This document shows, in pieces, positions 3,035 to 21,303 of a stretch of 36,637 bases of DNA. The stretch is taken from assembly GCA_007121025.1 (NCBI GenBank), contig SKMO01000030.1, positions 1-36,637 on the forward strand, written 5' to 3'. The stretch's first letter is position 1. Each line of letters opens with the position of its first letter. The position numbers and the translations under genes were made by a program. The notes under the pieces were generated by a model. That model was not told where the DNA came from. It was given only the letters and a program-made list of their open reading frames with translations, and did no database searches. This stretch comes from Bacillota bacterium (lineage in GTDB: Bacteria > Bacillota > TC1 > UBA5767).

Positions 3035-3452
3035 GCTGAAAGCAGACATCGATTGCATCGAGCCAATCCCCTGCAATCCCTGTCAATGGGCCTGTCCGTT
3101 TGGAGCCATTCACATTGGAGATGACATCACCAATCAGCCTGTGGTAAGCGATGAAAAATGTACCGGCTGTGGGATCTGTCTGGCCTACTGTCCCGGACTG
3201 GCCATCCGTTTGATCGGTCCCGGGCAGCAGTCCGGTCGTTCAGTAGTGGTCTTCCCCTATGAATACAGGCCCCTTCCGGAAAAGGGAGAACGGGTATCTG
3301 CTGTGGATCAGGGGGGAACGGTTCTGGGTGAGGGGGTCGTTCTGAGAATCCGGCGCCCGTTGAAAGATGATCCGACAGAATTGGTTTATCTGGATGTGGC
3401 GGACGCGATATCCAGGGAAGTCTGGAGCATGAGGAGGCTGGAGACAAAATGA
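3021..3452 (+). CDS. 2x[4Fe-4S] ferredoxin-type subunit
   Basis: A 143-residue protein with two cysteine groups: C12-x5-C18-x2-C21-x3-C25-P and the classical C47-x2-C50-x2-C53-x3-C57-P (KCTGCGICLAYCP). The first group is atypical in spacing but has four cysteines and the following proline. The C-terminal 80 residues form a small beta-rich domain with no motif I recognise. The gene overlaps the 3' end of the alpha-subunit gene by 14 nt and overlaps the next gene by an ATGA. An extra ferredoxin subunit of this kind is known in the heterotetrameric proline dehydrogenase of Thermococcales. In this operon it would carry electrons between the flavin subunits or out to an acceptor. Confidence 0.85.
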   Translation: MATNKLKADIDCIEPIPCNPCQWACPFGAIHIGDDITNQPVVSDEKCTGCGICLAYCPGLAIRLIGPGQQSGRSVVVFPYEYRPLPEKGERVSAVDQGGTVLGEGVVLRIRRPLKDDPTELVYLDVADAISREVWSMRRLETK

Positions 3453-3787
3453 ACGAAAAAAATTACCGGGACCGGATCATCTGCCGGTGCGAGGAAATCA
3501 CAGAAGGACAGATTCTGGATGCAATTGAACGGGGGGACCAAACCCTTGATGCAGTGAAACGCCGGACCCGTGCAGGGATGGGCCTGTGTCAGGGGAAAAC
3601 CTGCGCGCGTCTGGTGGCCCGTCTGATTTGCGAGAAGACCGGGGTGTCTATGGCGGCGATCGATCCGCCGCGCAAACGTCAGCCGGTCAATCCGATTTCC
3701 CTGGGAACCCTGGCCAGTGGAGCCGGACGGGAAACTGTGACCCGCTGGGACCAGCTGGATGAACAGCTGGATGAGGAAGAAAAATGA
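3449..3787 (+). CDS. Stand-alone BFD-like [2Fe-2S] protein
   Basis: A 112-residue protein whose first 60 residues are a bacterioferritin-associated-ferredoxin-like domain. The [2Fe-2S] ligands C12-x-C14 (IICRCEEIT) and C47-x4-C52 (GLCQGKTC) are all present, with the RAGMG element just before the second pair. In HcnB, OoxA and nitrite reductases this domain is fused to a flavoprotein; here it is separate, directly complementing the short alpha subunit. The C-terminal 50 residues (proline-rich, then acidic QLDEQLDEEEK) look like a flexible docking tail. The gene starts and ends in 4-nt overlaps with its neighbours (3449-3452 and 3784-3787). Confidence 0.87.
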   Translation: MNEKNYRDRIICRCEEITEGQILDAIERGDQTLDAVKRRTRAGMGLCQGKTCARLVARLICEKTGVSMAAIDPPRKRQPVNPISLGTLASGAGRETVTRWDQLDEQLDEEEK

Positions 3788-12980: not shown

Positions 12981-14192
12981 TTAACGGAGGAGTTTGGGCA
13001 CCCGGGGCGCTTTGAGACTGTATGCTTCCGGCAGATCACTCCCCGCAAGGGGACGGACATAATCAATGAATGCTTTGGTCACATCATTGTGGTCCGGGCC
13101 AATATACTCGTCAGGCATCAGCCGGGTTTTTGCAGCGATTTCCTCAAGATCGACAAGGACATAATCTGTTTCGTAGTCACCGGTCCGTCGGATGGTGATC
13201 GATCCGGTCTGTCCATTGGCAATAGCAAAATGGGCGGCTTTTGCCCCGACTTCCCGGGCTTCCCGGCTGTCTGTATCACTGACGCAGCCAATAAAACTCC
13301 GTTGCAGATACCCGAAAGTATCGGCTCTGACCCGGCTGATGCCGGTGGTTTTCTTGATGTGATCAACCAGCATGTCGCCCAGCTGACCCCCGGCAAGCTG
13401 AACATTCCCGTGGGCATCGCGCTCCACCGACTCCTGCAGCTTGGTGGCCACGGGTTCGCCGTCGGCAGACGAGATTCCTTCGGATACAGAAATGACACAG
13501 CGCCCGTAACGGTTGAATACGGAAAGGACATCTTCTGAGAACTTGTCCAGATCGAAAACCCGTTCCGGCAGATAAATCAGGTGAGGACCGTCATCGGGCA
13601 TCTTGCGGGCCAGTGCCGATGAGGCGGCCAGGAAACCGGCATGACGGCCCATGACGACACCGATGTAGACACCGGGAAGGGCTCTTGTTTCCAGGTTTGC
13701 ACCGATAAAGCACTGAGCAACGAAACGGGCGGCGGAGCCGTACCCCGGGGTGTGGTCATTGAGCACCAGGTCGTTGTCAATGGTCTTGGGGATGTGAACA
13801 GCACGGAAAGAATAATGTTCCTTCGCGGCATAGTCGTTGACGATCCGAACGGTGTCCGAAGAGTCGTTGCCTCCGATATAGAAAAAGAATCGAACGTTAT
13901 GGGCCTTGAGTGACTGGAATATTTTGGCGCAATACGCTTCATCCGGCTTAACCCGGGTGGACCGTAGGGCAGCACAGGATGTGGCGGCCACCCGCTCCAG
14001 ATTCTCAAGTGTTTCCTGAGTCAGGTCCAGCAGTTCTTCATTCACAATGCCTTCAACCCCATGAATGGCCCCATAAATGTTTTCGACCTGTGGGTAGCGC
14101 CGTGCTTCCAAAACGGCCCCGATCAGGGACTGGTTGATCACGGCTGTAGGGCCTCCGCCCTGTGCAATCAATACATTTCCATTAAGATCCAT
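12981..14192 (-). CDS. pfp: 6-phosphofructokinase, predicted pyrophosphate-dependent
   Basis: A 403-residue PFK-superfamily protein. Diagnostic residues: G107-G-N-D110-S (the second position after GG in ATP enzymes is Gly, in PPi enzymes Asp) and P135-K136-T-I-D-N-D141 (Lys in PPi enzymes, Gly in ATP enzymes). MGRHAGFLA and the C-terminal region match the longer PPi-type lineage. It would phosphorylate fructose 6-phosphate to the 1,6-bisphosphate reversibly with PPi, in the cytoplasm. The asparagine in GGND, where GGDD is usual, is characteristic of one subgroup. The minus-strand start has GGGAGG 7 nt upstream. It is monocistronic, between its own promoter and a terminator. Phosphoryl donor is inferred from two residues only. 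Confidence 0.88.
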   Translation of the reverse strand: MDLNGNVLIAQGGGPTAVINQSLIGAVLEARRYPQVENIYGAIHGVEGIVNEELLDLTQETLENLERVAATSCAALRSTRVKPDEAYCAKIFQSLKAHNVRFFFYIGGNDSSDTVRIVNDYAAKEHYSFRAVHIPKTIDNDLVLNDHTPGYGSAARFVAQCFIGANLETRALPGVYIGVVMGRHAGFLAASSALARKMPDDGPHLIYLPERVFDLDKFSEDVLSVFNRYGRCVISVSEGISSADGEPVATKLQESVERDAHGNVQLAGGQLGDMLVDHIKKTTGISRVRADTFGYLQRSFIGCVSDTDSREAREVGAKAAHFAIANGQTGSITIRRTGDYETDYVLVDLEEIAAKTRLMPDEYIGPDHNDVTKAFIDYVRPLAGSDLPEAYSLKAPRVPKLLR

Positions 14193-16105: not shown

Positions 16106-16738
16106 ATGCGTATTCACATTATTTTTCACAGCATCCATGGTCACTGCTACCAGATGGCCAGGGAAATCGAGCAGGGAATCAGACAGGTGGAGGGCATCAT
16201 TACCGGGATCTACCGTGTACCGGAAACATTGCCCGCCAACACATTGGCAGACATGGGGGCCACACAATCTCTGGCCCGGATGAGCGGAGTTCCGGTGGCA
16301 ACAATGAATGAGCTCGAAGATGCAGATGGCATTGTCCTTGGGGCTCCCACATACTTTGGAACGCCCAGTTGCCAGATGATGTCCTTTCTTCATGGGGCCG
16401 GGCCCCAGTGGGCTGAGGGCCGGCTGATGGGGAAAGTCGGTGCATCCTTTACCACGGCTTCAGAACAAAACGGTGGGGCGGAGACCTGTCTGCATACGCT
16501 TAACGATTTTTTCTATCACCAGGGTATGTTGATCGTCCCCATGCCAACGGCGCTGACCGTAAATGAAATGCACGAGGAGCAGATTCCGGTGGGAGGGTAC
16601 GCTTATGGTGCTTCCATGATCACCGGAGGGCTGAATGACCGGGACATCACTGATCAGGAAGCAGCGATTGCCCGGCTTCAGGGTCGTCAAATTGCCGGAG
16701 TCGTCAGAGATTTGCTCCGTAGCCGAAAGGAGAAATGA
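16106..16738 (+). CDS. WrbA-like flavodoxin-fold NAD(P)H:quinone oxidoreductase
   Basis: A 210-residue flavodoxin-fold protein. The phosphate-binding loop is near HSIHGHCYQMA (the T/SxTGxT loop of flavodoxins is altered to S-I-H-G-H-C). GAPTYFGTPSCQM is the WrbA hallmark (GxPTRFG-like), and the FTTASEQNGGAETCL segment matches the WrbA SxxxxxGGxE region. WrbA proteins bind FMN and reduce quinones by two electrons. The C-terminal ITGGLNDRDITDQE, with the final helices, also fits. AAGGAGG lies 10 nt before ATG. It follows the lipoprotein gene by 24 nt and precedes a second flavoprotein by 4 nt, so the two flavin genes are probably cotranscribed. Confidence 0.85.
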   Translation: MRIHIIFHSIHGHCYQMAREIEQGIRQVEGIITGIYRVPETLPANTLADMGATQSLARMSGVPVATMNELEDADGIVLGAPTYFGTPSCQMMSFLHGAGPQWAEGRLMGKVGASFTTASEQNGGAETCLHTLNDFFYHQGMLIVPMPTALTVNEMHEEQIPVGGYAYGASMITGGLNDRDITDQEAAIARLQGRQIAGVVRDLLRSRKEK

Positions 16739-16742
16739 CGCC

Positions 16743-17246
16743 ATGGAAGAAGTTCGTTATGAGGAGTACGCAAAAGAGTACTTGGAACAGCTGAAAAAAG
16801 GGGCCTTTCTCACCGTCAAGGGAGCACGGGACAACACGATGACCATCGGCTGGGGAACCATCGGCTACATGTGGAAGAAGCCTGTGCTCATGGTGATGGT
16901 CCGGCCGACCCGCCACAGCTATGCCCTTCTGGAGCAAGCCCGTGAGTTTACGGTCAGTGTGCCACTCCATCAAAACTTGCAGGACCAGCTGTTGGGTTGC
17001 GGGAAGCATTCTGGCCGGGATATGGATAAATTCAAGGAGTTTGGACTGGATAAACAAAACGCCCTTTCCCTTCTGGAGACACCGGTGGTGGGGAACTGCC
17101 GGCTGCACTATGAATGCCGGCTGTTGTACCGGCATCCTTTGGACCCGGAGGAGTTGGATGAAGTCATCCGGGACACTGCGTATACTCAGGGAGACTATCA
17201 TGTGCTGTATTACGGAGAAGTCCTTGAATCGTATTTGACGGATTAG
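16743..17246 (+). CDS. Flavin-reductase-like (FMN-binding split-barrel) protein
   Basis: A 167-residue protein of the flavin reductase / FMN-binding split-barrel type, close to the short clostridial members related to flavoredoxin. Indicators: KGAFLTVKGARDNTMTIGWGTIGYMWKKPV near the start (the flavin-contact strand pair), RPTRHSYALLEQAREFTVSVP, then CGKHSGRDMDKF, which matches the usual G-x-x-SGRD-DKF segment. It likely binds FMN and shuttles electrons in the cytoplasm. ATG 16743 is preceded by AAAGGAG at about 10 nt. With the adjacent WrbA-like protein it may form a small redox pair; the electron donor is not evident. Confidence 0.85.
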   Translation: MEEVRYEEYAKEYLEQLKKGAFLTVKGARDNTMTIGWGTIGYMWKKPVLMVMVRPTRHSYALLEQAREFTVSVPLHQNLQDQLLGCGKHSGRDMDKFKEFGLDKQNALSLLETPVVGNCRLHYECRLLYRHPLDPEELDEVIRDTAYTQGDYHVLYYGEVLESYLTD

Positions 17247-17333: not shown

Positions 17334-17396
17334 AGCAGTGTAAATCACATTTAATTATCGATTGATTATTTAACTAGAAAACAGGGGGGACGGATG

Positions 17397-17858
17397 ATGT
17401 CATACGAAGCCAAATGCAGGGAACTGGGTATTGAGATTCCCGTACCGGGTAAGCCCGCGGCGGCATACGAACCGGGTGTCCTGATTGATGGATATGTGTA
17501 CGTCTCCGGCCAGCTGCCCATGGTGGATGGAACATTGAGCCTGGCCGGCGTTGTCGGTGAGGACGTGTCGCTTGAGCAGGCCTATGAGGCGGCCCGTATC
17601 TGTGCAATCAACGGCCTTGGTGTGGTCAAAAGCCTGTTGGGCTCTCTTGACCGCGTCGAGCGGGTGATCAAGGTAGAGGGATTTGTAAACAGCCCTCAGT
17701 CCTATGGAATGCAGCCCAAAGTCATTAATGGAGCGTCCGAGCTACTTGGGGAGATTTTTGGGGACGCCGGCAAGCATGCCCGATTCGCCATTGGGACCAG
17801 CGGATTGCCGCTGGGCGCTGCTGTGGAAGTGAGCATGGTGGTCAAAGTCAAAGAATGA
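17397..17858 (+). CDS. RidA-family protein (enamine/imine deaminase)
   Basis: A 153-residue YjgF/YER057c/UK114 family protein of the slightly long subgroup. The trimer core shows VYVSGQLPMVDGTL (strands 1-2), LGVVKSLLGSLDRVERVIKVEGFV and HARFAIGTSGLPLGAAVEVSMVV. The last segment contains the conserved Arg (HAR) and Leu-Pro/Glu pattern needed to hydrolyse imines. RidA proteins hydrolyse 2-aminoacrylate and related reactive enamines formed from serine and cysteine by PLP enzymes. It stands just upstream of the aminotransferase-SerA-DUF1015 genes, so protection of serine metabolism is a sensible role. ATG 17397 fits the GGGGGGA spacing better than ATG 17394. Confidence 0.88.
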   Translation: MSYEAKCRELGIEIPVPGKPAAAYEPGVLIDGYVYVSGQLPMVDGTLSLAGVVGEDVSLEQAYEAARICAINGLGVVKSLLGSLDRVERVIKVEGFVNSPQSYGMQPKVINGASELLGEIFGDAGKHARFAIGTSGLPLGAAVEVSMVVKVKE

Positions 17859-17889
17859 GCAGTTGGTGGTTGCCGAAACCGCACACACG

Positions 17890-17921
17890 TTGCTGATGAT
17901 ATCTGAACAAGATATATCATA
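17890..17921 (+). promoter_or_regulatory. Hairpin and possible promoter before the class-V aminotransferase gene
   Basis: TTGCTG (17890-17895), 17-bp spacer, TATATC (17913-17918) is a weak promoter-like arrangement. The same stretch can fold as TGATATCT, loop GAACA, then AGATATATCA with a 2-nt bulge. Either reading, or neither, may be real. Confidence 0.35.
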
Positions 17922-17965
17922 GAGGGGTATCAAAAATTTTACTGGTCAAAGAGGAGGAAATGGGA

Positions 17966-19039
17966 ATGCACAAAAAGTTATTTATTCCAGGTCCTGTGGA
18001 CGTGGCGCCTGACGTTCTTCAGAGAATGGCATCGCCAATGATCGGACACAGAACCAACGAGGCATCGGTTCTGCAGAAAAGTTGTCATGACAAAATGCAG
18101 AAACTGTTCTACACGGAAAACATGATCATGTTTTCCACGTCATCCGGAAGCGGCTTCATGGAAGGGGCGATCCGGTCTTGCACGCGGAAAAGAGCAGCGG
18201 TCTTTTCCATCGGAGCGTTTGGCAACAGATGGTACAAGATGGCAACGGCCAATGGCGTGCCTGCGGACAAATTCGAAGCAGAATGGGGGACACCGACAAC
18301 GCCGGAGATGGTCGATGAAGTCCTGGCCACCGGAAAATATGATCTGATTACGGTGACACACAACGAGACATCCACCGGTATTCAAAACCCTGTGGAAGAG
18401 ATCGCTGAAGTCATGAAAAAATACCCGGATGTGGTCTGGTGCGTGGATGCGGTCAGCTCTGCCGGCGGCGCAAAAATTGAAGTCGACAAACTGGGCATTG
18501 ATGTTCTCATTACGGCAACACAGAAAGCCCTGGGACTGCCTCCCGGACTGGCCATCTGCTCTTTCTCAGAAAAAGCCTACGAGGCCACAAAGGAAGTGGA
18601 AAACAGAGGGTTGTACTTTGATATGCAGGAGATCTACGATACGATCATCAAAAAGAATCACCAGTATCCGTCTACACCGTCGGTTTCCCACCTGTATGCA
18701 CTGGACTACCAGCTGGACAAGATCATGCTGGAGGGCCTGGATGCCAGATGGGCCAGACACGAAGAAATGGCCAAGTATGTCAGAACCTGGGCAAACAAGC
18801 ACTTTGAACTGCTGCCTGAGGAAAGATATGCGTCAAGAACACTGACCAACGTGAAAAACACCAGGGAGATCAGTGTGGGCGCACTCAACAAGGAACTGGC
18901 CAAAAGAGGCATGTGCATCTCCAACGGTTACGGCAAGATGAAGGATGTTACGTTCAGAATTGCCCATATGGCCGACACGACTCTGCCGGAAATCAGAGCC
19001 CTGCTGTTTGAAATCGAAGATATTCTTGGTCTGAACTAG
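17966..19039 (+). CDS. Class-V aminotransferase (alanine/serine-glyoxylate or phosphoserine type)
   Basis: A 357-residue PLP enzyme of fold type I, class V. FIPGPVDVAPDVLQRMASPMIGHRT is the family's N-terminal signature, STSSGSGFMEGAIRS is the phosphate-binding loop, CVDAVSSAGG holds the PLP-contacting Asp, and TATQKALGLPPG carries the Schiff-base lysine K187. Members of this group act as alanine-glyoxylate, serine-glyoxylate or, when next to serA, as phosphoserine aminotransferases. Given SerA and DUF1015 downstream, conversion of 3-phosphohydroxypyruvate to phosphoserine is the likely role (inferred from context). ATG 17966 has GAGGAGGA at 7 nt; ATG 17960 is too close. Arginine is coded almost only by AGA (13 of 16), unlike most genes around. 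Confidence 0.87.
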   Translation: MHKKLFIPGPVDVAPDVLQRMASPMIGHRTNEASVLQKSCHDKMQKLFYTENMIMFSTSSGSGFMEGAIRSCTRKRAAVFSIGAFGNRWYKMATANGVPADKFEAEWGTPTTPEMVDEVLATGKYDLITVTHNETSTGIQNPVEEIAEVMKKYPDVVWCVDAVSSAGGAKIEVDKLGIDVLITATQKALGLPPGLAICSFSEKAYEATKEVENRGLYFDMQEIYDTIIKKNHQYPSTPSVSHLYALDYQLDKIMLEGLDARWARHEEMAKYVRTWANKHFELLPEERYASRTLTNVKNTREISVGALNKELAKRGMCISNGYGKMKDVTFRIAHMADTTLPEIRALLFEIEDILGLN

Positions 19040-19057
19040 ACCAAAGAGACGACTGAA

Positions 19058-19091
19058 GGGGACTTAGGGCCGTATAAGGCTCTAAGTTTCC
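19058..19091 (+). promoter_or_regulatory. Intercistronic RNA hairpin between the aminotransferase gene and serA
   Basis: GGGGACTTAGGGCC (19058-19071), loop GTATAA, GGCTCTAAGTTTCC (19078-19091). As RNA this pairs over 14 bp with three G-U wobbles. It is followed by TTTTT after 5 nt (19096-19100), then the serA ribosome site. It may be an attenuator or a stabilising or processing structure. Confidence 0.6.
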
Positions 19092-19124
19092 GCTGTTTTT
19101 GAATCAACGAAGGAGGATATAACA

Positions 19125-20033
19125 ATGGCAAAAATTCTTGTAACGGATGGAATGGATAAGAGTGCGGTGGCGTCCCTGAAAGGACTGGGACACGATGTGA
19201 TTGAAGAGTTTTTTGAGCCGGCAGACCTGGCCAAAAAAGTTCAGGAAGTGGACGCCCTGGTGGTTCGTTCTGCAACCAAAGTTACGGCAGACATTCTCGA
19301 TGCAGCAGCGAAGAGCGGACAACTGAAGGTGGTCATCAGAGCAGGCGTGGGCATTGACAACATTGATGCAAAGCATGCGGACAAACGGGGGATCCAGGTC
19401 AGAAACACACCGGCAGCCAGCTCCTCAGCGGTTGCTGAACTGGCCCTTGCCCACATGTTTGCTCTGGCACGGTTTATTCCGGCAGCCAATGTGACCATGA
19501 GAGACGGACAGTGGAACAAGAAAGCCTACAAGGGCATCGAACTGGCGGGCAAAACCCTTGGGCTGATCGGCTTTGGCCGGATTGCCAGAAGCCTGGCCGA
19601 AAAAGCCAATGCTTTGGGAATGAAGGTTGTTTACACCGATATTCTGGGCAAGTTTGAAGGGTTTGACCAGTACGAGTATATGGAACAGGATGAGATTCTC
19701 AAAACCGCTGATTTCATCTCCCTGCACATTCCGTATGACAAGGCAGTCGGCCCAACCATCACTTCCCGGGAAATCGGCATGATGAAAGACGGCGCTTACC
19801 TGATCAACTGTGCCCGTGGTGGAGTTGTTGAAGAAAAGGCACTGGTTGAAGCGCTGAATTCAGGAAAACTGTCCGGAGCAGCTGTGGACGTTTTTGAAGT
19901 TGAGCCGACGCCCAACGAAGATCTGGTATCTTGCAGCAACGTGTCCTGCACACCGCATATCGGTGCGTCGACCCGGGAAGCCCAGGCCAGAATTGGTGAG
20001 GAAATCGTTGAGATTGTTAAGGAATATTTCTAA
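19125..20033 (+). CDS. serA: D-3-phosphoglycerate dehydrogenase, short form
   Basis: A 302-residue D-2-hydroxyacid dehydrogenase. VIRAGVGIDNID and the NAD-binding GLIGFGRIARSLAEKA identify the family. The catalytic set is R231 (NCARGG), E260 (VFEVEP) and H278 (TPHIGAST). The protein lacks the C-terminal ACT and intervening domains of the long PGDH, so no serine feedback site of the classical kind is present. It oxidises 3-phosphoglycerate to 3-phosphohydroxypyruvate with NAD, the first step of serine synthesis. The assignment over other hydroxyacid dehydrogenases rests on the neighbouring aminotransferase and DUF1015 genes. AGGAGG sits 8 nt before ATG. Confidence 0.88.
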   Translation: MAKILVTDGMDKSAVASLKGLGHDVIEEFFEPADLAKKVQEVDALVVRSATKVTADILDAAAKSGQLKVVIRAGVGIDNIDAKHADKRGIQVRNTPAASSSAVAELALAHMFALARFIPAANVTMRDGQWNKKAYKGIELAGKTLGLIGFGRIARSLAEKANALGMKVVYTDILGKFEGFDQYEYMEQDEILKTADFISLHIPYDKAVGPTITSREIGMMKDGAYLINCARGGVVEEKALVEALNSGKLSGAAVDVFEVEPTPNEDLVSCSNVSCTPHIGASTREAQARIGEEIVEIVKEYF

Positions 20034-20055
20034 ATAACGGAAGGAGGATGGTTCA

Positions 20056-21303
20056 ATGGCTGTCGTAAAACCATTCGCAGCAGTCAGACCGAACAAAGGT
20101 CTGGCAGAGAAAGTGGCATCGTTGCCCTATGATGTTATGAACCGGCAGGAAGCCAAGGAAATGGCTGATGGGAACCCTTATTCCTTCCTGCATGTGGGCC
20201 GTTCAGAAATTGACATTGCAGACTCAGTCAGTCAGTACGATGACGCGGTGTATGCCAAGGCCCGGGAAAATTTGGACCGGATGATCAGCGAAGGAACGCT
20301 GATTCAGGAGGATGCTCCCTGCTACTACATCTACCGGCAGATCATGGACGGACGGGCACAGACCGGACTGGTCGGTTGCACATCCATCGATGAGTATATC
20401 GATGACACCATCAAAAAGCACGAGTTCACCCGGGAAGAGAAGGAAATCGACCGGATCAACCATTTTGATGTATGTGATGCAAACACTGAACCGGTGTTTC
20501 TGACTTACCGGAACAAACCGGAGATCAATGAGATTGTTGGAAACTGGATCAATGAGCACGATACGATCTTTGATTTTGTGTCGGACGACGGAATCGCCCA
20601 TGTGGGCTGGAAGATTGATGACGGAGAACTGGTGTCAAGGATCGATGGATTGTTTGCCGAGCTGGACAATCTCTATATCGCGGACGGCCACCACCGGAGC
20701 GCTTCGGCGGCCAAGGTTGGCCTGAAGCGCAGACAGGAAAACCCGGATTACTCCGGGGATGAGGAGTTCAACAGATTTCTGGCGGTGATCTTTCCTGACC
20801 ATGAACTATTGGTGATGGATTACAACCGGGTGGTCAAAGACCTGAATGGACTTTCAGAGGAAGCGTATCTGGAAGCGGTTCAAAAAGTGTTTTCTGTGGA
20901 GGAGTACAAGGGAAGTGGTCCATACAGGCCGGACAATAAGCACCGGTTCGGGATGTACTTGGACGGGAAATGGTACATTCTGGAAGCCCTGGAGGGGACA
21001 TACGACCCGTCCCATCCAGTGAACAGTCTGGATTCTGCCATTTTGCAGAACAATCTGCTCGACCCAATCCTGGGGATTGAAAATCCAAGGACAGACAAGC
21101 GGATCGATTTCATTGGTGGGATCCGGGGCTTGGAAGAGCTGGAAAGACGGGTTTCCGGAGGCATGAAGGTCGCTTTTTCCATGTACCCAACCACCATTGA
21201 TGATTTGATGAGTGTGGCTGATGCCGGTGAAGTGATGCCACCGAAATCAACCTGGTTCGAGCCAAAACTCAGAAGTGGATTATTTGTGCACAAACTCTGC
21301 TAA
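20056..21303 (+). CDS. DUF1015 family protein linked to serine biosynthesis
   Basis: A 415-residue DUF1015 protein. Family landmarks are KPFAAVRPN at the start, SLPYDVMNRQEA, the block around K121-H122-E123 (KKHEFTREEKEIDR), and the invariant-looking D210-G-H-H-R214-SASA. A short DGHHR motif of this type recalls ParB/SerK-like nucleotide-binding proteins; I infer but cannot prove a nucleotide or phosphoryl-transfer role. It follows serA by 22 nt with AAGGAGG 7 nt before ATG, so the three genes form one unit. No SerB-type phosphoserine phosphatase (DxDxT) is encoded nearby. That makes this protein a candidate for a serine-phosphate-related step. Confidence 0.85.
   Translation: MAVVKPFAAVRPNKGLAEKVASLPYDVMNRQEAKEMADGNPYSFLHVGRSEIDIADSVSQYDDAVYAKARENLDRMISEGTLIQEDAPCYYIYRQIMDGRAQTGLVGCTSIDEYIDDTIKKHEFTREEKEIDRINHFDVCDANTEPVFLTYRNKPEINEIVGNWINEHDTIFDFVSDDGIAHVGWKIDDGELVSRIDGLFAELDNLYIADGHHRSASAAKVGLKRRQENPDYSGDEEFNRFLAVIFPDHELLVMDYNRVVKDLNGLSEEAYLEAVQKVFSVEEYKGSGPYRPDNKHRFGMYLDGKWYILEALEGTYDPSHPVNSLDSAILQNNLLDPILGIENPRTDKRIDFIGGIRGLEELERRVSGGMKVAFSMYPTTIDDLMSVADAGEVMPPKSTWFEPKLRSGLFVHKLC

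Follow-up and report, generated by a model that had tools for sequence, protein, structure and literature searches.

A DUF1015 protein with a divergent serine kinase fold as a probable replacement for SerB in a Bacillota serine operon

The closest described relatives of the protein considered here are free serine kinases: SerK from Thermococcus kodakarensis (TK0378; PDB:5x0b–5x0k), which is ADP-dependent and has a Pyrococcus orthologue of known structure (PDB:1vk1), and SbnI from Staphylococcus (PDB:5uje and PDB:6nr6), which is ATP-dependent. The opposite step, dephosphorylation of phosphoserine to serine, lacks a known enzyme in hundreds of Firmicutes genomes, so that metabolic models have to guess at serine-making ability. 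One study lists 450 gut genomes, from diverse Firmicutes, that encode SerA and SerC and none of four phosphatase types (PMC9026213); Clostridium perfringens grows without serine, with SerB candidates of low confidence only (PMC7311316). Here we describe a 36,637-nucleotide stretch of Bacillota DNA (contig SKMO01000030.1 of assembly GCA_007121025.1; hereafter the window), which makes up contig 20 in a draft genome of 2.23 Mb and 86.9% completeness, and in which a gene for a DUF1015 protein (PF06245; COG4198) directly follows serA.

We propose that DUF1015 proteins of the clade to which the window's protein belongs (clade I) remove the phosphate from phosphoserine to give serine, thereby replacing SerB; we put the probability of this at roughly 0.7. 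The proposal is based on gene order, fold, motif conservation, gene linkage, the T-box leaders of relatives, and complementarity with SerB, from which we infer the substrate, the direction and the catalytic roles. The same lines, gene order aside, support the original prediction that DUF1015 acts on phosphoserine or serine; of the three roles it left open (phosphatase, kinase or regulator), they favour a predicted biosynthetic removal of phosphate over the other two. No link of DUF1015 or COG4198 to serine biosynthesis, and no assigned function, was found in the open-access literature, and an earlier proposal may exist elsewhere. If correct, the assignment would close the gap in a large part of the Clostridia and Bacteroidota, and would mean that a serine kinase fold has been put to use in the direction opposite to the known one.

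A serine operon ending in a DUF1015 gene

Genes for a RidA-like protein, a class V aminotransferase, SerA and the DUF1015 protein lie consecutively on the + strand, separated by 101, 85 and 22 nucleotides; open reading frames and Pfam matches thus agree with the predicted run, including its 22-nucleotide serA–DUF1015 gap. All seven genomes retrieved from the same family and order have the four genes in an identical arrangement, which indicates that the run is not due to chance. The operon would make serine starting from 3-phosphoglycerate: SerA would oxidise it to phosphohydroxypyruvate, the aminotransferase would convert this to O-phosphoserine, and the DUF1015 protein would remove the phosphate in the place of SerB. 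E123 is the proposed counterpart of E30 of SerK and may serve as acid/base at the serine hydroxyl, whilst D210–R214 and K397–T399 would hold the phosphate. The phosphate acceptor could be water, inorganic phosphate (giving pyrophosphate) or a nucleotide, the reaction in this last case being pulled by serine demand; in the SerK structure, phosphoserine and nucleotide are held together by this fold.

It is possible, on a tentative view, that this branch of DUF1015 does not hydrolyse phosphoserine and instead hands the phosphate on, either to inorganic phosphate or to a nucleotide, as a serine kinase fold running in reverse. Among orphan enzyme activities, a pyrophosphate:serine phosphotransferase (EC 2.7.1.80) is on record; the open-access literature yielded nothing on a pyrophosphate- or ADP-dependent DUF1015 kinase. 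Were such transfer to occur, many anaerobes and flavobacteria would conserve a phosphate bond, in the form of pyrophosphate or ADP/ATP, when making serine.

The predicted lack of a recognisable phosphoserine phosphatase was confirmed at genome scale by a TIGR00338 search, whose best SerB score, 39.9 bits, lies below the cut-off of 144; no canonical SerB was found in this draft. A TIGR00338 match at E ≤ 1e-30 is likewise missing from three further members of the family, including a single-contig genome of 99% completeness. The protein with the 39.9-bit score, the most SerB-like that the window's genome encodes, is a HAD-IB-hyp1 hydrolase (TIGR01490) whose gene adjoins mnmA (G000:C26:10739–11314); it is a candidate backup phosphoserine phosphatase. 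A different phosphatase, of the HAD or histidine type, might make serine, with DUF1015 in an accessory or different role such as regulation. The genome does encode several HAD proteins, and unrelated enzymes perform this step elsewhere, namely YsaA of Bacillus subtilis and PspA of Hydrogenobacter (PMC9026213, PMC8002221). However, the operon itself contains no such phosphatase, DUF1015 keeps its catalytic-type residues almost unchanged throughout the family, which is unlike a pure regulator, and the PF00300 histidine phosphatases of the genome, considered as PspA-type candidates, look on reading like phosphoglycerate mutase and SixA types. We consider this alternative unlikely.

Across 300 genomes of the phylum, SerB exceeded the cut-off in one and DUF1015 was present in 149, the scarcity of SerB being in agreement with both published surveys (PMC9026213, PMC7311316). 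SerA was found in 285 of the 300, which makes a count of its co-occurrence with DUF1015 uninformative.

Fold and active-site motifs

The DUF1015 protein is a full-length member of PF06245 (390 bits against a cut-off of 25.8, covering profile positions 1–324 of 325). It has no NCBIfam match, and thus none to TIGR00338. An AlphaFold2 model built from a 51-sequence alignment has a mean predicted local distance difference test score of 96.6 and a predicted template modelling score (TM-score) of 0.92; its fold is SerK-like and not that of the HAD phosphatases. Comparison of the model with the PDB using Foldseek returned nine structures at E ≤ 0.001, all of them SerK, its Pyrococcus orthologue or SbnI, the top match (E 4e-8) being the E30A variant of SerK with phosphoserine and AMP. 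TM-scores lie between 0.51 and 0.61 on the target and between 0.34 and 0.38 on the query, with a root-mean-square deviation of about 6 Å over 300 columns, a loose overall alignment that is expected because the DUF1015 protein carries large insertions.

Both predicted motif regions are present, as K120-K-H-E123-F-T125-REEKE130 and D210-GHHR214-SASA. A DUF1015 profile built from a diverse set finds the P. furiosus structure 1vk1 (E 0.0037), with three collinear segments pairing PHE30 with HE123, DGHHR with DGHHR210–214, and K-T with KST397–399; the DGHHR and C-terminal K-T motifs are aligned in order to 5x0b as well as to 1vk1. The PHE30/HE123 segment is weak, scoring below zero bits alone, and is supported by its order with the other two. 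The diverse profile was required, as PDB searches with the single DUF1015 sequence or a narrow profile gave chance matches only. The likeness to SerK that had been noted from motifs is thus borne out by both structure comparison and motif alignment, and on the basis of the model the window's DUF1015 protein is a distant, divergent member of the SerK/SbnI free serine kinase fold.

Conservation was assessed over 33 DUF1015 members, nearly all 19–29% identical to the window's protein. Y91, H122, A209, G211, H212, H213, R258, P395, K397, T399, F401 and P403 are invariant in all 33; E123, T125, R133, D210, R214 and K404 reach 97%, and S398 91%. Over 143 DUF1015 sequences, H122 is conserved in 100% and E123 in 99%. 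Retention of the glutamate that was mutated to trap the SerK complexes argues for catalysis.

The same evidence bears on a ParB-like role, in which DUF1015 would be a nucleotide switch or a DNA-binding regulator of the operon. A likeness to ParB had been suggested alongside that to SerK, and a 2025 survey of the ParB-CTPase fold has ‘DU1015’ among its fusions, with no nucleotide reported as bound by DUF1015 in the passages considered (PMC12704722). The structure comparison upheld SerK only: Foldseek significance is confined to serine kinases with none to ParB, Pfam yields PF06245 alone with neither a ParB nor a helix-turn-helix domain, and the catalytic glutamate of SerK is kept. We therefore reject this role on fold, and regard it as highly improbable.

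Within the family, an apparent fused extra domain in one 884-residue open reading frame (L112) has no Pfam match outside DUF1015 and is probably a start-codon artefact. In one draft genome (L041; G262:C325) an in-frame TAA interrupts the DUF1015 gene, reflecting either a pseudogene or a sequencing error.

Regulation, gene linkage and complementarity with SerB

A T-box activates its genes in response to uncharged cognate tRNA. T-box leaders are found upstream of the operon in Clostridium magnum (L051), Lutispora (L055) and Clostridium sp. cel8 (L057), and ahead of serA–DUF1015 in Desulfosporosinus (L086); in L051 and L057 the specifier was read from the alignment as UCC (Ser). A T-box with a serine specifier in this position points to serine synthesis and not to serine breakdown. 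In L057 the serA–DUF1015 gap is 20 nucleotides, so that DUF1015 should share a transcript with serA. Serine T-boxes with the codon UCC have been reported at clostridial serA (PMC8002221), and COG4198 genes of Firmicutes have been found to follow glycine riboswitches with a single aptamer (PMC2211319). An Rfam scan of the window and of the loci of seven relatives found no riboswitch or T-box. In L051, within 3275–3690, a second T-box-like end (GGGTGGCACCGCG ... CGTCCCT) follows the first T-box and precedes serC–serA–DUF1015, perhaps as a tandem T-box.

The T-boxes also bear on whether DUF1015 could be a serine kinase, converting serine to phosphoserine, with SerC and SerA running backwards to bring serine into glycolysis. 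This would fit the fold, since every characterised relative is a kinase, and SerK of Desulfurococcales lies beside genes for 3-phosphoglycerate dehydrogenase and an aminotransferase, for which serine assimilation has been proposed (PMC5120207). Against it, the T-boxes of four clostridial loci, read as serine (UCC) in two, imply expression on serine starvation, and SerB is absent where linkage is strongest, so that bacteria otherwise equipped for serine synthesis would have no route from phosphoserine to serine. A kinase acting in this direction thus appears improbable.

Linkage was examined in 109 DUF1015 loci, many on short contigs, so that neighbour counts are lower bounds. A SerA-family gene lies within four genes of DUF1015 in 53 loci (directly upstream in 42, directly downstream in three) and a SerC-family aminotransferase is near it in 49; the next families reach 15 and 14. 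Direct SerA- or SerC-family neighbours occur in Firmicutes, Elusimicrobia, Gemmatimonadetes and Acidobacteria, the Bacteroidota having been sampled separately. Even DUF1015 proteins about 25% identical to that of the window can lie within serC–serA–DUF1015 runs (L139 and L149), whereas most of the divergent set lies outside such runs.

Among 23 genomes of various phyla with the close DUF1015 type, none had SerB above the cut-off. The Bacteroidota sample comprised 118 genomes, 104 with one DUF1015 gene and 37 with SerB. Of the 69 SerB-negative genomes, 50 have DUF1015 adjoining serA or serC, against none of the 35 SerB-positive ones (Fisher p 3e-14, a value that overstates the evidence, as the independent changes in SerB status are few). 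The linked type, including the window's protein, falls within a single supported clade, clade I, and the DUF1015 of most SerB-positive genomes belongs to clade II, so the tree explains the pattern of SerB and linkage in part. Clade I has three SerB-positive members, all of them unlinked. In clade II (L195–L214, L249–L272; Bacteroidota with SerB) the HE, DGHHR and PKST motifs are kept, K129–E130 is replaced (P/A-K) in the members checked, and the gene is located away from serine genes.

Several observations weigh against a SerB-replacing role. The characterised relatives, SerK and SbnI, all run from serine to phosphoserine. Reversal of SerK onto AMP or ADP is thermodynamically uphill, and a hydrolytic or inorganic phosphate-accepting variant must therefore be assumed. 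Other HAD phosphatases of the window's genome, including the HAD-IB protein encoded beside mnmA, could serve. DUF1015 is unlinked in 19 of the 69 SerB-negative Bacteroidota. Complementarity is phylogenetically clustered: SerB status changes just six times along the DUF1015 tree, and when SerB was tested against linkage by independent pairs, the independent changes were too few for the test to have any power. Finally, clade II DUF1015 coexists with SerB, and the DUF1015 family as a whole is thus not simply a SerB substitute.

Other features of the locus and comparison with described enzymes

The coordinates of the run and its motifs are given in Table 1. The RidA-like gene has two possible ATG starts, the originally predicted 17397 being the second and the open reading frame beginning at the first. 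Its product scores above the Pfam cut-offs (PF14588, 82.6 bits; PF01042, 41.1 bits) and below the NCBIfam Rid cut-off. RidA heads the run in each of the seven genomes retrieved from this family and order, and had no match in other loci around DUF1015, of which 29 have flanks too short to show it; it is a lineage-specific companion of the run, added in this family and order only. By analogy with the known RidA family, a role in protection against 2-aminoacrylate is plausible, though a guess.

The aminotransferase falls below every NCBIfam SerC cut-off (top SerC model 64 bits against 402). Class V aminotransferases adjoin serA in DUF1015 operons of other genomes, and SerC3 is a predicted phosphoserine aminotransferase adjacent to serA in Clostridium (PMC9026213); from operon context and that proposal, the enzyme is presumed to be a phosphoserine aminotransferase of the SerC3 group. 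SerA has 2-Hacid_dh domains without an ACT domain, and its top model is TIGR01327, with 322 bits over the first 300 positions; this is under the cut-off of 454, which is set for the 525-residue form. The gap between the aminotransferase gene and serA contains a stem-loop, as do those of seven relatives with differing sequence, and the window's may be a partial terminator, a processing site or an operator.

Table 1. Features of the serine gene run in the window
Feature	Position	Strand	Length	Remarks
RidA/YjgF-type protein	17394..17858	+	154 aa	first gene of the run; PF14588/PF01042
Class V aminotransferase	17960..19039	+	359 aa	presumed phosphoserine aminotransferase (‘SerC3’ kind); PF00266
Stem-loop	19058..19091	+		aminotransferase–serA gap; 14 pairs, then a short T run
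SerA, D-3-phosphoglycerate dehydrogenase	19125..20033	+	302 aa	short form; PF02826 and PF00389
DUF1015 protein	20056..21303	+	415 aa	SerK fold; proposed phosphoserine-dephosphorylating enzyme; PF06245
KKHEFT motif	20413..20430	+		K120–T125; H122-E123 align with SerK H29-E30
ADGHHR motif	20680..20697	+		A209–R214; aligns with SerK DGHHR
PPKSTWFEPK motif	21238..21267	+		P395–K404; K397–T399 align with SerK K-T-T at 221–223

Upstream of the RidA gene (window positions 16106–17246) lie genes for a WrbA-type NAD(P)H:quinone oxidoreductase and a flavin-reductase-like protein. A phosphofructokinase (PF00365) with the motifs GGNDS and PKTIDND is encoded at 12981–14192 on the − strand; these motifs suggest a pyrophosphate-dependent type, and it would be of interest if the DUF1015 protein made pyrophosphate.

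Among described enzymes, SerB (TIGR00338), SerB2/PspA, YsaA and SerB4 carry out the step proposed here for DUF1015, but have HAD or histidine-phosphatase folds that are unrelated to it, and DUF1015 is absent from the SerB replacements proposed previously (PMC9026213). SbnI has the same fold as DUF1015 (E 2e-6 to 4e-5); it differs in being only 8–11% identical and in its role, which is in siderophore synthesis and not serine synthesis. SerK shares the fold (Foldseek E down to 4e-8, TM-score on the target 0.53–0.59), the HE30, DGHHR and K-T motifs in the same order and, in Desulfurococcales, SerA and aminotransferase neighbours. It is, however, a compact single-domain protein of about 240 residues with approximately 15–17% identity to the window's 415-residue protein, which has extra N-terminal and inserted segments, and DUF1015 occurs where SerB is lacking and has a T-box ahead of its operon in some clostridia, so that its net direction is probably the reverse of that of SerK.

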